64,000 nt of DNA from an uncultured Nitrospira sp. (GTDB taxonomy: Bacteria > Nitrospirota > Nitrospiria > Nitrospirales > Nitrospiraceae): positions 186,001 to 250,000 of the forward strand of contig CABVSR010000002.1 of assembly GCA_902500995.1 (NCBI GenBank), read 5' to 3'. The position numbers were made by a program, and so were the translations under genes. The notes under the pieces were generated by a model. That model made no database searches and had not been told where the DNA came from. It saw only the letters and a program-made list of their open reading frames with translations. Positions 51,019 through 62,553 of the stretch are shown in pieces (the stretch's first letter is position 1; each line of letters begins with the position of its first letter).

Positions 51019-51774
51019 TTACCCGCGCAGCTCACTCCCCAGCCCTTGCACCGGTTGCGTCCGCACCTGCGCAGCAACCGGCTGATGTTCGAGCCCCATC
51101 CAAAATCCTTCGAGATAGTCCAGCACCGCATGCATGCCGTGACGAAAATCGCCCTTTTCCGACTCCGACATCAGCGAACCAGCGGCACCGTTCGCGCCTT
51201 CAACGGCACCGACCGCCTGCTCCATGGCCCGTTCGTGTTCGGACTCAAGTTGGCGATGGAAGACGAAATAGGTCATGTCCATATCTGGGTACCGCGTGCC
51301 TTGCAAACGCCTGAGACCCGGAATCAGATGATCCCACATGGTGATGGCCATGTTCTCCAAGCCAAAGGAGGCGCCCAATGCCATCGCATGATTCCCGCTG
51401 CTATAGAGATGTTCCATGCCTTCGATATAGGCGCGGGTGGAAGGCCGCATCGGCGTGGTCATGGCGGCGTGAATGTCGATTCCCAGCGATCGCAGAAAGT
51501 TTCGATACAACAATTCGTGCCGGTGTTTGACGGAGCCGTCGCCGAGTTCGGAATAGAGCACTCGCGTCAGCTCGTCCGCCACGGCTTCATCTTCGGTGTT
51601 GACCAGTTGAGCGGCAAGGATGCGCGGGAAGAATCGCGAGAAGTTATAAAATTCGACCGCGAATTCTCGAAATTCCCGGTCGTTCAGACCACCGGCGGCG
51701 AACCGGTCGAGGTAGGAATTATTGATCGCTCCATGTCGCAGCACGTCCGCGCGCACTTGTTCGTAAAACGACAT
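51019..51774 (-). CDS. Haem-oxygenase-like iron-dependent oxidase family protein
   Basis: 251 residues, first gene of the leftward arm, GGAGGTG four bases before the ATG. An all-helical TENA/PqqC/haem-oxygenase-like fold with a metal-ligand pattern like haem-oxygenase-like diiron oxidases (HDO): Glu and His in YSELGDGSVKHRHELLYR, Glu in GLENMAITMWDH, and FVFHRQLESEHERAMEQ near residue 175. Family members oxidatively fragment amino or fatty acids or make p-aminobenzoate. Reaction here unknown. Confidence 0.75.
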   Translation of the reverse strand: MSFYEQVRADVLRHGAINNSYLDRFAAGGLNDREFREFAVEFYNFSRFFPRILAAQLVNTEDEAVADELTRVLYSELGDGSVKHRHELLYRNFLRSLGIDIHAAMTTPMRPSTRAYIEGMEHLYSSGNHAMALGASFGLENMAITMWDHLIPGLRRLQGTRYPDMDMTYFVFHRQLESEHERAMEQAVGAVEGANGAAGSLMSESEKGDFRHGMHAVLDYLEGFWMGLEHQPVAAQVRTQPVQGLGSELRG

Positions 51775-51987
51775 CGTGCACCTCCGCTCTCATCTCGCGG
51801 CGCCCTTGCGGGGTCGGCTTCTGCGTGCCTGTGAAAGAAATACTCATCATCATGGTCAGATAATACAAAATCTATATTGAATGATGCAACTATTATGTTG
51901 TACAGTGTGCTCATGCGTGACCGAACAGCAGAACCCGTCACTCGGCATCGGTGCAGAATCTCATGATCATGCTGAGGAGGAACCGCC
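51775..51987. promoter_or_regulatory. Divergent control region of the catabolic island
   Basis: 213 bases between the first genes of the two arms. Leftward promoter candidate: TTGCAT (51884-51889), 18 bases, TATTAT (51860-51865), on the minus strand. Rightward candidate: TTGAAT (51877-51882), 18 bases, TACAGT (51901-51906). An imperfect palindrome CAAC-6-GTTG, in a 20-base context at 51885-51904, overlaps the leftward -35 and the rightward -10, as expected for a shared operator. The core is markedly AT-rich against its surroundings. All roles are inferred. Confidence 0.5.
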
Positions 51988-52587
51988 ATGAAAGAAGCCA
52001 TCGGGGTTGACCACATCACCTTATGCGTGAAGAATCTGGCGGCCACTACCTATGTCTTCACGCGCATTCTCGGCTTCGAGGTCATCTGGTCCGCGCAGGA
52101 CGTGGGGAGTGAGAAATCCAGCATGGACACCGTCGTGGTGCAACGGGGCGAAGCCAAGATCGCCTTGATGCAGGGCAGAAATAAAGAACGCAAATCGCAG
52201 ATCTGCGAGTTCGTCGAGACCTATGGCGAAGGCGTCCAGCACATCGCTCTGGAGGTCGACGATATCGAAGCCGTGTGCCGTGAATGGGAAACACAAGGCG
52301 TCCGGTTTGCCGGCGACATCAAAGACGGGCGAGACGGTTTCGGACCACTACGGCAACGCTTCACCTATCCGTTGTTTCCGGGATGCGGGCTCTTCCTCGA
52401 ACTCACCCAACGGCAACATGGCCAGGAAGAATCCAAGACCTTTGTCCGCGCGACGGTGGAATCTCTCTATCGCGACATCGAACGGGATCAGATCAAGGGC
52501 GTGACACGCACCATCGTCGACTACGACACGCTTCCGCTGCCGTTCGAGGAGGAAGTCGAAGCCGCGTCGCTCCGGCACGCATCATAA
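51988..52587 (+). CDS. Half-size HPPD-like VOC dioxygenase
   Basis: 199 residues, GAGGAGG before the ATG. It corresponds to the catalytic C-terminal half of 4-hydroxyphenylpyruvate dioxygenase: iron ligands match as His9 (GVDHITL), His85 (GVQHIALEVDD) and Glu138 (GLFLELTQR). HPPD proper is about 350 residues with two VOC units; the N-terminal unit is absent here. First gene of the rightward arm and directly upstream of homogentisate dioxygenase, so a role in making homogentisate or cleaving a related aromatic 2-oxoacid is likely. Other VOC functions are possible. Confidence 0.75.
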   Translation: MKEAIGVDHITLCVKNLAATTYVFTRILGFEVIWSAQDVGSEKSSMDTVVVQRGEAKIALMQGRNKERKSQICEFVETYGEGVQHIALEVDDIEAVCREWETQGVRFAGDIKDGRDGFGPLRQRFTYPLFPGCGLFLELTQRQHGQEESKTFVRATVESLYRDIERDQIKGVTRTIVDYDTLPLPFEEEVEAASLRHAS

Positions 52588-52623: not shown

Positions 52624-53739
52624 ATGTACCTGGTCAAAAAAGGCACCGCTCCCAATCAGGCCCACGTGGGAATCCCGGACGGGCTGCATGAAGAGGAGCA
52701 TGGCCGCGCCGGATTCAGCGGCCCCGCTTCGCACCTCTATCATCGACACCCGCCGACCGGCTGGAGCCGGATCGAAGGCCCTCTCCGGCCGCGCGCCTTT
52801 GCCTGCACGGAATTATCCACCCCCGACCAACAGACAGCCGACCGCCGACCGCTGACGATCTTGGAAAGTCCGGATGCCCGCGTCTTTCTGTCGCGACGAG
52901 CGGCCACCATGACGCATTTCGTGCGGAATGCCGACGGAGACGAAATTCTCTTCGTCCATGCCGGCTGCGGAACTTTGGAGACGGATTATGGTTTGCTGCA
53001 TTATGAGCCGGGCGACTACCTGATCATTCCCAAAGGGACCACCTATCGCATTCATGTCGATCAGACTGCAGAACCAGTCCTATTCCTGATCATTGAAACC
53101 CCGCATCCCGTGCAGCTTCCCGATCGAGGCCCCCTCGGCCGGCATGCCCTCTTCGACCCGGGTGTCATCGTGGCGCCCGAACCAGCGGCGCCGCCTCAGG
53201 ATGCGAACAGCCGGCGTGAATGGGAGGTTCGTATCAAACGCGGCCATGAGGACACGCGCGTCTACTATCCCTTCTATCCGATGGACGTCGCCGGCTGGAA
53301 AGGCGACTTGTGGGTGGCCAAATTGAACGTGCAGGATTTTCGCCCTGTCACCAGCCCGCGCTACCATCTTCCCCCTAGCGTGCATGCCACCTTCCAGGCG
53401 GGCGGATTGTTGATCTCGACCTTTGCCCCGAGACCGCTGGAGACCGATCCGGACGCCTTGCGCGTGCCCTTCTACCATCGCAACATGGACTACGACGAAG
53501 TGCTGTTCTACCACCGGGGAGAATTTTTCAGCCGGGCCGGGATTCAAGCCGGCATGTTGACGCTCCATCCTCAGGGCATTCATCACGGGCCGCAGCCGCA
53601 AGCCATCGCCGCCAGCAAAGGGAAGGACCACACCAACGAAGTCGCCGTCATGATCGAATCGCGGCACGCCTTTCAGGTCAGGCCCGAACTCGAATCGGTC
53701 GAGCTGAAGGACTACGCCATGAGCTGGAGTCGCCCATGA
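52624..53739 (+). CDS. hmgA: Homogentisate 1,2-dioxygenase (short type)
   Basis: Cupin-type non-haem Fe(II) ring-cleaving dioxygenase converting homogentisate to maleylacetoacetate. 371 residues, the shorter bacterial/archaeal type (mammalian enzyme about 445). The two cupin barrels are seen (GCGTLETDYGLLHYEPGDYL; second half). Probable Fe ligands are His285 and Glu292 in FYHRNMDYDEVLF and His321 in HPQGIHHGP. The FAH gene starts four bases inside its stop. Substrate identity relies on family and neighbours. Confidence 0.88.
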   Translation: MYLVKKGTAPNQAHVGIPDGLHEEEHGRAGFSGPASHLYHRHPPTGWSRIEGPLRPRAFACTELSTPDQQTADRRPLTILESPDARVFLSRRAATMTHFVRNADGDEILFVHAGCGTLETDYGLLHYEPGDYLIIPKGTTYRIHVDQTAEPVLFLIIETPHPVQLPDRGPLGRHALFDPGVIVAPEPAAPPQDANSRREWEVRIKRGHEDTRVYYPFYPMDVAGWKGDLWVAKLNVQDFRPVTSPRYHLPPSVHATFQAGGLLISTFAPRPLETDPDALRVPFYHRNMDYDEVLFYHRGEFFSRAGIQAGMLTLHPQGIHHGPQPQAIAASKGKDHTNEVAVMIESRHAFQVRPELESVELKDYAMSWSRP

Positions 53740-54728
53740 AACTTGTAAGCTTTGAAGTCCGCACGCCGGTCGGAACCTTCACCAGAATCGGCGCGCTCCA
53801 CGGGGAATCGATCGTCGATCTGAACATGGCCCACGCCTGCCTACTCGCCGACCACGGCGAGGCACGGCCTCGCCGGCTTGCCGATGCCCAGGTCCCGCCC
53901 GCGATGTTGGAGTTTTTGGAGGGCGGTCCCTCCGCCATGGCGGCAGCCCGGCGCGCGCTCGAGTTCGTGACAGAGGTAACGAAGCGCTCGGTGGGGCCCT
54001 CAGGTGAAACGGTCATCTATAAACCGGCCGACATTCATATAACCGCGCCCCTTCCCAACCCCGCCTCGCTGCGGGACTTCATCGCCTTCGAAGACCATAT
54101 CGCCGCGACGTCGAAACGCCGCGGCCAGCCGATCCCTCCTGAATGGTACAAGGCGCCGGTCTATTACAAGGGAAACCACCGCACCATCATCGGGCCGGAT
54201 CACACACTCCCCTGGCCGCTCAACACCCAGAAGCTGGATTACGAACTGGAGCTGGCCTGCATCATCGGGCGGGGCGGCATCGATGTGGCGGAACGCGACG
54301 CAGTTGGTTACATCGCCGGCTATACGATCATGAATGACTTCAGCGCGAGAGACATCCAGTTTCAGGAAATGGCCTGCCGGCTCGGTCCGGCGAAGGGAAA
54401 AGATTTTGCCACCGCCATCGGCCCCTGCCTCGTCACACCCGACGAGATCCCGGACCTCGCTTCGCTGGAGATGATCGCGCGGATCAACGGAGAAGTCTGG
54501 TCGCGCGGTCGTTTCGGATCGATCCATTGGTCGTTCCTTCAGATGATCGAACATGTGTCGCGAGGAGAAGCCATTTATCCGGGCGACCTGCTGGGATCAG
54601 GCACGGTCGGCGGCGGCTGCGGCCTGGAACTCGACCGCTATTTGCAACCGGGCGATTGCATCGAATTGGAAATCCAGCCCATCGGCATTCTCAGAACCAC
54701 CATTGCCGGCCGGGACGGAACCGCTTGA
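53736..54728 (+). CDS. Fumarylacetoacetate hydrolase family protein
   Basis: 330 residues of the FAH superfamily, which hydrolyses C-C bonds of beta-diketo acids such as fumarylacetoacetate. Metal and active-site words are present: IAFEDHI, YELELACIIGRGG, GYTIMNDFSARDIQ, GKDFATAIGPCL, LLGSGTVGGGCGLEL. Overlaps hmgA by four bases, which supports fumarylacetoacetase activity. No separate maleylacetoacetate isomerase is seen nearby. Confidence 0.92.
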   Translation: MKLVSFEVRTPVGTFTRIGALHGESIVDLNMAHACLLADHGEARPRRLADAQVPPAMLEFLEGGPSAMAAARRALEFVTEVTKRSVGPSGETVIYKPADIHITAPLPNPASLRDFIAFEDHIAATSKRRGQPIPPEWYKAPVYYKGNHRTIIGPDHTLPWPLNTQKLDYELELACIIGRGGIDVAERDAVGYIAGYTIMNDFSARDIQFQEMACRLGPAKGKDFATAIGPCLVTPDEIPDLASLEMIARINGEVWSRGRFGSIHWSFLQMIEHVSRGEAIYPGDLLGSGTVGGGCGLELDRYLQPGDCIELEIQPIGILRTTIAGRDGTA

Positions 54729-54740
54729 GAAGGAGGCATA

Positions 54741-55499
54741 ATGCCAGTCGAGACGAACGCTTCGGATGCCGCCATGTTGGAGTTGATAGCCCGGCAGCGG
54801 GCGATCTATGAGGGATCGGAAATCGACATCAGGATGGAACACCTCATTCGCGACACGCCCCACCCCACCCTGTCGTCCTGGGATGTTCAGCGCCTGCTGC
54901 GCGCCTCTCGCGCCGTCTATTTCGACAGCCATGTCGAGGTCGTGTCGGGCCACCATACCGAGGTGTACCTGCGATTCGAATCCATCGCGCAGTTTCCCGA
55001 CCTCATCACGATCATTGCGGCCAACATGGCCGAATGGCTCCTCCAAACGTTTCAGGAGCACCCGCCGGCGGGCATCATCACCACCTCATCGGACGCGCGC
55101 CTGCTGGCCGAACGAACCTGCGAACTCCTGGGGGCGCACCTTCCGCTGCGCACGGTGCTGACGCCCTTCAACCGGGAGACGGGCAAGATCGGCACGGAGA
55201 TCGTCAGCGGAACCGTGGAGCCCGGAGAACGATTTCTCTCATTGAACGACGTCACCACGCGCGGCATGTGTGTCAGCAAATTAGGGAAGATCGTCACGGA
55301 TCGCGGCGGGCAGCTGGCGGGCATGATGGTGTTCGCCAGACGAGACAGCGGGCAATTCCCTTACATGGAGGAGCTGACGGCCACGTACCCGTTCTACTTC
55401 GGCGTCGATCTGGACATGCCGCAGTGGGAACCGGCCGATTGTCACGCCTGCCGGGACAACAAGCCGCTGGTGTCCTGGAGGGATCTGCCCGCGCTGTGA
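54741..55499 (+). CDS. Phosphoribosyltransferase-like protein in catabolic operon
   Basis: 252 residues, preceded by GAGAAGGAGG. The middle of the protein resembles a type I phosphoribosyltransferase (orotate PRT-like): FPDLITIIAANMAEWLL, then RFLSLNDVTTRGM at 165-176 in the place of the PRPP-binding DDVxTTG loop. A CxxC pair occurs at 234-237 (DCHACRDN). The Asp-Asp of the loop is Asn-Asp here, so PRPP chemistry is uncertain. Its position between FAH and the 2-oxoacid dehydrogenase genes is unusual. Confidence 0.6.
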   Translation: MPVETNASDAAMLELIARQRAIYEGSEIDIRMEHLIRDTPHPTLSSWDVQRLLRASRAVYFDSHVEVVSGHHTEVYLRFESIAQFPDLITIIAANMAEWLLQTFQEHPPAGIITTSSDARLLAERTCELLGAHLPLRTVLTPFNRETGKIGTEIVSGTVEPGERFLSLNDVTTRGMCVSKLGKIVTDRGGQLAGMMVFARRDSGQFPYMEELTATYPFYFGVDLDMPQWEPADCHACRDNKPLVSWRDLPAL

Positions 55500-60957: not shown

Positions 60958-62553
60958 ATGAACGAGAGAAAAGCTCGATTCACCTCCCTCTCCGGTTTGA
61001 ACATCGAACCGTGCTACGGGCCTGATCATCTCAAGGGCTGGCACGCCGAACAGGACCTGGGCCGACCGGGCGCATTTCCTTACACCCGCGGTTGCTACCC
61101 CGGCATGTATCGCAGCCGGGTCTGGACCATGCGGCAATTCGCCGGCTTCGGCTCTGCCGACGACACAAACGCGCGCTTCAAATATTTATTGGATCACGGC
61201 CAAACCGGCCTGAGCGTCGCATTTGACCTCCCGACCCTCATGGGTCTCGATGCCGACGATCCGCTGGCTCGCGGTGAGGTGGGACATTGCGGGGTGGCCG
61301 TCTCGTCCCTCGCCGACATGGAACGGTTGTTCGACGGCATCCCGCTCGATCAGGTCACGACGTCCATGACGATCAACGGTCCCGCCGCCGTGCTGTTCGC
61401 CATGTATCTGGCGGTAGCGGAAAAGCGCGGGATTCCTTTCGACCGGCTGGGCGGCACGATTCAGAACGACATTCTGAAGGAATACATCGCACAGAAGGAA
61501 TGGCTGTTTCCCCCCGAGCCGCACCTGGCCTTGATTGTCGACACGATCACGTATTGCGCGGCGCATGTGCCGAAATGGCACCCGATCAGCATCAGCGGAT
61601 ATCACATCCGCGAGGCCGGCTCGACGGCGATTCAGGAACTGGCCTTCACGCTGTACAACGGCCTGACCTACGTCGAGGCGGCGGTGAAGTCGGGGCTCGC
61701 TGTGGACGCGTTTGCGCCGCAGTTATCGTTCTTCTTCAACGTCCACAATGATTTTTTCGAAGAGATCGCCAAATTTCGCGCCGCCCGGCGTCTCTGGGCT
61801 CGCGAGATGGAACGGCGGTACCACCCCCAAAACCCCCGGTCGCTGCAGCTGCGTTGTCACGCCCAAACCGCCGGTTGTTCACTCACGGCCCAGCAGCCGT
61901 TGAATAATGTGGTGCGAACCACCCTGCAGGCCCTGGCCGCCGTGCTCGGCGGCACGCAATCGCTCCATACGAATTCGATGGATGAAACGCTGGCCCTGCC
62001 GACGGAAGAGGCTGTGAAGCTGGCGCTGCGGACGCAGCAGATCATTGCGGCGGAAAGCGAGACAGTCAATACCGTCGATCCTTTGGGCGGCTCGTACTTT
62101 GTCGAGTCGCTGACGAACCGGCTGGAAGAAGGGGCGCGGGAACTGTTTCACAAACTGGATGGCATGGGCGGCATGGTCTCCGCCATCGAGCGCGGGTTTC
62201 CGCAGCGGGAGATCCTGGATGCGTCGCAACGGTACCAGCACGAAATTGAACGGCAGCAACGGAGCATCGTTGGAGTGACGGAGCATCGAGAAGATGAGTC
62301 CCGTTCCATTCCTATTTTGAAAATCGGACCGGAGGTCGAACAGGAGCAGGTGGCACGCCTGTCCGATCTCCGGAAATCACGCGATCCGTTCAAGATGGCC
62401 GGCTCGCTGGAAGAGCTGCAGGAGATGGCGTCCTGTCACCAGAATCTCATGCCGCCGTTGATTGAAGCAGTGAAGGCCAAGGCCACGCTGGGTGAGATTT
62501 GCGCCGCCCTGAAGGAAGTGTACGGAACCTATCGGGAGCCGGTGGTGTTGTGA
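60958..62553 (+). CDS. icmA: B12-dependent acyl-CoA mutase large subunit, isobutyryl-CoA mutase type
   Basis: 531 residues with the TIM-barrel catalytic domain of the methylmalonyl-CoA mutase family but no B12-binding domain of its own. Residues that fix specificity are Phe61 (WTMRQFAGF, where methylmalonyl-CoA mutase has Tyr89) and Gln179 ([10 protein letters not shown], where that enzyme has Arg207). Phe/Gln at this exact 118-residue spacing is the isobutyryl-CoA mutase signature. Predicted to interconvert butyryl- and isobutyryl-CoA with the small subunit at 63481. GGGAGG lies seven bases before the ATG. Confidence 0.85.

Follow-up and report, generated by a model that had tools for sequence, protein, structure and literature searches.

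The half-size gene and its operon

The window analysed here is a stretch of 64,000 nucleotides from an uncultured Nitrospira sp., whose genome assembly (3.97 Mb) is 97.6% complete. Positions 51988-52587 (+ strand) contain an ORF encoding 199 residues, which Pfam describes as one VOC (glyoxalase) unit and which, according to NCBIfam, phmmer, alignment and family profile, resembles the C-terminal half of HPPD. A probable ribosome-binding site, GAGGAGGAA (51974-51982, + strand), can be read in the sequence five bases 5' of the ATG. Upstream of this start only four codons are open, which limits the protein to at most 203 residues, and the start of a divergent gene lies 213 bases from the ORF. No N-terminal VOC unit has therefore been missed upstream, and the first-pass annotation was right that this unit is absent. 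Comparison with three near relatives gave dS values of 0.76-0.97 and a dN of 0.04 (dN/dS ~0.05), which excludes a chance ORF: the half-size ORF is a real gene under strong purifying selection. The nearest named relatives of the genome are Nitrospira MAGs (11 loci, with 80-94% identity in this protein). We also considered a truncated or frameshifted HPPD, which is ruled out by the absence of an upstream unit, by the 41 distinct intact sequences found and by the purifying selection.

The next gene (52624-53739, + strand) encodes a protein of 371 residues with matches to PF20510 and PF04209. It aligns to the solved homogentisate 1,2-dioxygenases (HGDs) 3zds (E 4e-15) and 1ey2, and its HRN, E and HGP motifs, which we take to be the metal ligands in HGD, align with those of 3zds. 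The adjacent HGD noticed in the first-pass annotation is thus recognizable as such by alignment, but it is a short and diverged one that scores 78.6 bits with TIGR01015, against a cut-off of 510.75. It is followed by a gene for a fumarylacetoacetate-hydrolase (FAH)-family protein of 330 residues (53736-54728, + strand; PF01557, 184 bits). The conserved fourth gene (54741-55499, + strand), recognized by synteny and by a match to TIGR01367 below its cut-off (41.6 bits), encodes an orotate-phosphoribosyltransferase-like (PRTase-like) protein, for which there is no obvious role in aromatic breakdown. The divergent gene (51019-51774, - strand) encodes a CADD/BesC-like protein with the haem-oxygenase fold, identified by PF14518, by synteny and by matches to TIGR04305 and a BesC model that remain below their cut-offs.

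The locus was read in 41 genomes (L001 and L002 being one genome, and L022-L031 and L055-L064 repeats of genomes already counted), and in every one of them the HGD-like gene comes directly after the half-size gene, with the FAH-family gene next. The CADD-like gene is divergently oriented upstream in 39 of these 41 loci, and in the other two the contig end comes first. Most loci with enough flank continue with genes for the PRTase-like protein, E1-alpha, E1-beta, E2, thiolase, hydroxyacyl-CoA dehydrogenase and a methylmalonyl-CoA-mutase-type protein; in the window, a gene with the N-terminal domain of methylmalonyl-CoA mutase lies 8 kb downstream (60958-62553, + strand). At locus L070 (genome G279) the VOC, HGD, FAH and PRTase-like genes are together and the E1/E2/thiolase/mutase set is located beyond the CADD-like gene, so that the former four constitute a core. 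The half-size gene occupies the operon position expected of a full-length HPPD.

Profile matches, metal ligands and pocket residues

The top NCBIfam model for the half-size protein is that of HPPD, TIGR01263, which scores 89.7 bits across positions 156-264 of its 353-position profile, corresponding to the C-terminal unit. This is a third of the cut-off of 277 bits, and the HPPD and HGD models both being far below their cut-offs argues against a plain HPPD reading. Solved HPPDs come first with phmmer and with the family profile: a profile of 11 orthologues detected them at E 1.5e-22, HmaS 2r5v at 4e-16 and epimerases at 5e-11 or weaker. The protein also carries the HPPD 'QxFT...FxE' strand, which holds the Glu ligand, followed by the counterpart of the final HPPD helix. 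PF07063 (DUF1338) was absent from its Pfam matches. Viral contigs scanned to deepen the alignment yielded no relative, and plasmid records no match above 36% identity. An AlphaFold2 model based on 11 close sequences was poor (mean pLDDT 47.5); with this model, Foldseek and VIA-align identified the VOC fold only, HPPD N-halves, the HmaS C-half, epimerases and Fos proteins all matching alike. The small VOC protein 9u42, titled homogentisate 1,2-dioxygenase, gave a Z of 7.2, which is in the unspecific range, and 14.9 bits with the family profile.

Residues His9, His85 and Glu138, read as HPPD-type ligands in the first-pass annotation, do align with the metal ligands of HPPD and are invariant in all 41 distinct orthologues (the partial L032 and L042 were left out of this alignment). 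A complete triad proves little by itself, because it is common to methylmalonyl-CoA epimerases and other VOC proteins. A study of Arabidopsis HPPD (PMC6750108) names Ser267, Asn282, Gln293, Gln307, Gln379, Phe381, Phe392, Glu394, Phe419, Asn423 and Phe424. The alignment-based counterparts in the orthologues are, in the same order, T48, M61, Q71, Q84, Q123, F125, F136, E138, F152, T156 and V157. Hence, besides the triad, the three glutamines (Q71, Q84, Q123) and three phenylalanines (F125, F136, F152) are kept, whereas Asn282, Asn423 and Phe424 are replaced by Met61, Thr156 and Val157, and Ser267 by Thr48. The Ser267/Asn282/Gln293/Gln307 network together with Asn423/Phe424 is thus incomplete in the half-size family: two glutamines are kept, serine has become threonine and the rest is changed. 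Mutants of the first two of these glutamines lowered the efficiency of the Arabidopsis enzyme ~3722-fold and ~99-fold, according to the same study (PMC6750108).

M61, V157 and Y161 occur in 41/41 orthologues, where canonical HPPDs have Asn, Phe and Phe. Position 61 is Ile, Val or Leu in the five HmaS-type rows, and positions 157 and 161 are Ile/Val and Tyr in all five of them, compared with Phe and Phe in six of the seven HPPD rows; the seventh, a Variovorax enzyme, has Ala and Phe. T156 is likewise invariant in the 41 orthologues, and the corresponding residue is Asn in 18/18 compared HPPD, HmaS and NRPS-type rows. In a study of Streptomyces avermitilis HPPD (PMC3739788), F337I and F341Y, at the positions of V157 and Y161, cost ~98% and ~80% of the activity, respectively, and F337I led to hydroxymandelate being formed as well. 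No other evidence speaks as strongly against a plain HPPD as these pocket changes, which suggest that the product could differ from homogentisate. The half-size protein is not an HPPD as curated: it has one unit rather than two, falls below the model cut-off and lacks part of the pocket.

Distribution in Nitrospirota and two-unit counterparts

A canonical HPPD elsewhere in the genome, which the first-pass annotation had said would refute its reading if combined with inactivity on aryl pyruvates, was sought and not found: in this 97.6% complete genome PF14696 has no match, and the half-size ORF is the sole match to TIGR01263. Screening of 295 Nitrospirota genomes with TIGR01263 gave matches in 51 at E 0.001, and in none above the cut-off. 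Only one genome, G270, has a near-full-length match (253 bits). The remaining weak matches are at E 1e-10 and weaker, and those that were read include a VOC protein of a lysine cluster (L072). The HGD gene is present in 35 of the 295 genomes; 34 of these 35 also contain the half-size gene (E 1.2e-16 or better), which at this threshold never occurs without HGD, and G270 is the 35th. The 34 genomes are related and do not represent 34 independent events, although within genus g6 the pair is present in some species and wholly absent from many others. Genomes were sampled within the Nitrospirota, other phyla being represented by plasmid records.

Downstream of the gene for the two-unit HPPD of G270 (387 residues; L069:9625-10788, - strand), and in the same orientation, come genes for FAH, HGD, a flavin-reductase-like protein, a thiolase and an acyl-CoA-synthetase-like protein, the flavin-reductase and synthetase names being our own reading of the gene listing. 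Its HGD is 32% and its FAH 49% (over 222 residues) identical to those of the window. G270 is thus a natural swap, a rare alternative in which a two-unit HPPD instead of the half-size gene is located beside HGD and FAH. A distant CADD/BesC-like gene (L069:2918-3739, + strand) is present near this operon as well. A second two-unit HPPD is encoded on a Variovorax plasmid (L093:3533-4597, + strand), where it exceeds the TIGR01263 cut-off (296.7 versus 277 bits) and adjoins FAH and an HGD that is 45% identical to that of the window. This enzyme has Thr, Val and Ala where canonical HPPDs have Ser, Asn and Phe; its row reads T, V, A, F. The G270 and Variovorax neighbourhoods indicate that the short HGD type works with two-unit HPPDs elsewhere.

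Proposed function and origin of the single-unit family

The reading we favour, with a confidence only somewhat above even, is that the half-size protein is an Fe(II)-dependent aryl-2-oxoacid oxygenase with one VOC unit, and that in Nitrospira it carries out the HPPD step of tyrosine degradation. Support comes from the conserved triad and glutamines, the constant gene order, the co-occurrence with HGD, the swap in G270 and the lack of a further HPPD match in the genome. Fe(II) would be held by His9, His85 and Glu138 and chelated by the 2-oxo acid of 4-hydroxyphenylpyruvate; attack by O2 and release of CO2 would leave an iron-oxo species that hydroxylates the ring, giving homogentisate. The product of the HGD-like gene would then open the ring, and the FAH-family protein would cleave the resulting product. 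The enzyme may act as an oligomer, its final helix and tail presumably serving as a lid. The metal triad, pocket glutamines, QxFT and FxE motifs, final helix and HGD/FAH operon are all shared with HPPD (TIGR01263), and the HPPD role that the first-pass annotation called plausible is the best supported one, in the form of an HPPD-type enzyme that has one unit and belongs to an operon of the homogentisate type. What does not fit is that several pocket residues are unlike those of HPPD (Met/Thr/Val/Tyr versus Asn/Asn/Phe/Phe), and it is because of changes of the V157/Y161 type that we hold our confidence at this level.

The protein might act at another step of the same operon, either as the missing maleylacetoacetate isomerase or in the oxidation of another 2-oxo acid such as phenylpyruvate. 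The genome gave no match to the isomerase (maiA; TIGR01262) or to phenylalanine hydroxylase, isomerisation is within reach of VOC proteins, and the residues at the phenol end are changed. Yet an isomerase role would leave the operon without any HPPD, G270 has an HPPD in its stead, and the glutamine set and final helix that the protein retains are characteristic of HPPD, so we regard this option as unlikely.

About as unlikely is a single-unit HmaS-like enzyme, which would share the first half-reaction and then hydroxylate the benzylic carbon, giving (4-hydroxy)mandelate. The hydrophobic residue at position 61, Val/Ile at 157 and Tyr at 161 are indeed those of HmaS (2r5v, 3zgj); 2r5v was the first Foldseek match, on the poor model; and relatives that have one unit and Val at the switch position occur in NRPS clusters, most of them adjoining aminotransferases. 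Against it, HmaS has two units and Asn instead of Thr156, and the two-unit Variovorax enzyme, which exceeds the HPPD cut-off and adjoins HGD/FAH, likewise lacks the Asn and Phe. Moreover, the scanned neighbours included HGD and FAH rather than mandelate oxidases or any hydroxyphenylglycine biosynthesis genes.

A methylmalonyl-CoA epimerase partnering the mutase-type gene 8 kb downstream is very improbable: the single VOC unit, the His/His/Glu ligands and their short spacing are the same, and the half-size ORF is the best match to TIGR03081 in a genome that has no epimerase above the cut-off, which leaves this option some weight, but its 53.8-54.7 bits are below both that cut-off (114.95) and its HPPD score, the gene is distributed as HGD is, with G270 instead having a two-unit HPPD next to HGD, neither the final helix nor the glutamine set of HPPD is seen in the aligned epimerase rows, and Ala59 (41/41 orthologues) replaces the Glu of 'IELLE' (3/3 epimerase rows), which we take to be the fourth metal ligand of epimerases.

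As for the origin of the HPPD-like single unit, a 54-row tree placed the half-size family outside HPPD and HmaS, as sister to all 12 of their C-halves (94/86), which grouped together at 100/97. Without the N-halves these values were 90/79 and 100/96. Forcing the family with HPPD alone or with HmaS alone was weakly rejected (AU p 0.035 and 0.033), and uniting it with the NRPS type in one clade was not (p 0.38). The spacing from the second His to the Glu is 78-90 residues in 12/12 HPPD/HmaS C-halves versus 53 in the half-size family, which thus lacks an insert present in all 12 tested two-unit enzymes; the same spacing is 48 residues in the NRPS type, 49-53 in the lysine type and 50 in epimerases. 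Tree position and short spacing are both consistent with a single-unit lineage that predates the divergence of HPPD and HmaS. We consider it moderately supported that the family is sister to the HPPD/HmaS C-halves rather than a truncated HPPD, long branches and short proteins limiting the strength of the tree, and a recent loss of the N-half from HPPD or HmaS is disfavoured.

Two other kinds of single-unit VOC protein were encountered. The first, VOC-B (L033:8790-9380, - strand; contig C27 of G000), is encoded in a lysine-degradation cluster beside a saccharopine-dehydrogenase-family gene and one for L-piperidine-6-carboxylate dehydrogenase (above its cut-off). VOC-B is present in 91 of the 295 Nitrospirota genomes, the dehydrogenase in 75, and 74 of these 75 have VOC-B. 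PMC7286885 describes HglS (DUF1338, PF07063), the 2-oxoadipate oxygenase, as an intramolecular 2-oxoacid oxygenase of the VOC superfamily, the class proposed here for the half-size protein but in another pathway. PF07063 has no match in the window's source genome or in any of the 295 Nitrospirota genomes, and VOC-B is a candidate 2-oxoadipate oxygenase. The second kind comprises HPPD/HmaS-like proteins in NRPS clusters on plasmids (L065:7692-8474, L066:6917-7459, L067:6917-7462, L068:6917-7462, L085:5914-6462 and L086:5914-6462). A Vibrio europaeus plasmid has the gene in an NRPS cluster with those for an aminotransferase and an Ldh-family oxidoreductase, and rhizobial plasmids have it in NRPS clusters with an aminotransferase gene; in Paraburkholderia sabiae it adjoins an NRPS only, and a Sinorhizobium meliloti plasmid encodes a fusion of the VOC unit with chorismate mutase, adjoining prephenate dehydrogenase and pabB. 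The hydroxyphenylglycine route consists of a synthase, an oxidase and an aminotransferase, and in the light of it these proteins look like candidate single-unit (hydroxy)mandelate synthases.

It is a tentative idea, which we would sooner doubt than defend, that single-unit 2-oxoacid oxygenases are an old pre-fusion branch still serving three pathways: tyrosine (the half-size gene), lysine (VOC-B replacing HglS) and aryl-glycine for NRPS. The half-size enzyme would then perform HPPD chemistry in the pre-fusion architecture, the HPPD N-half being dispensable. Among the papers listed by searches of the open-licence PMC literature, none described a single-unit HPPD or an HPPD/homogentisate pathway in Nitrospira. 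To our knowledge, the purpose of the other half of HPPD has never been explained, and a natural enzyme without the N-half would, if the reading is true, make its role testable by direct comparison. Because one class of herbicides acts on HPPD, it would be of practical interest how an enzyme whose pocket is altered responds to them. Judged by sequence and gene neighbourhood, the half-size protein would accommodate HPPD-type chemistry in a single VOC unit; cut-off-based annotation would miss such an enzyme, because its score is below the HPPD cut-off, and an apparent gap in Nitrospira tyrosine breakdown would be closed.
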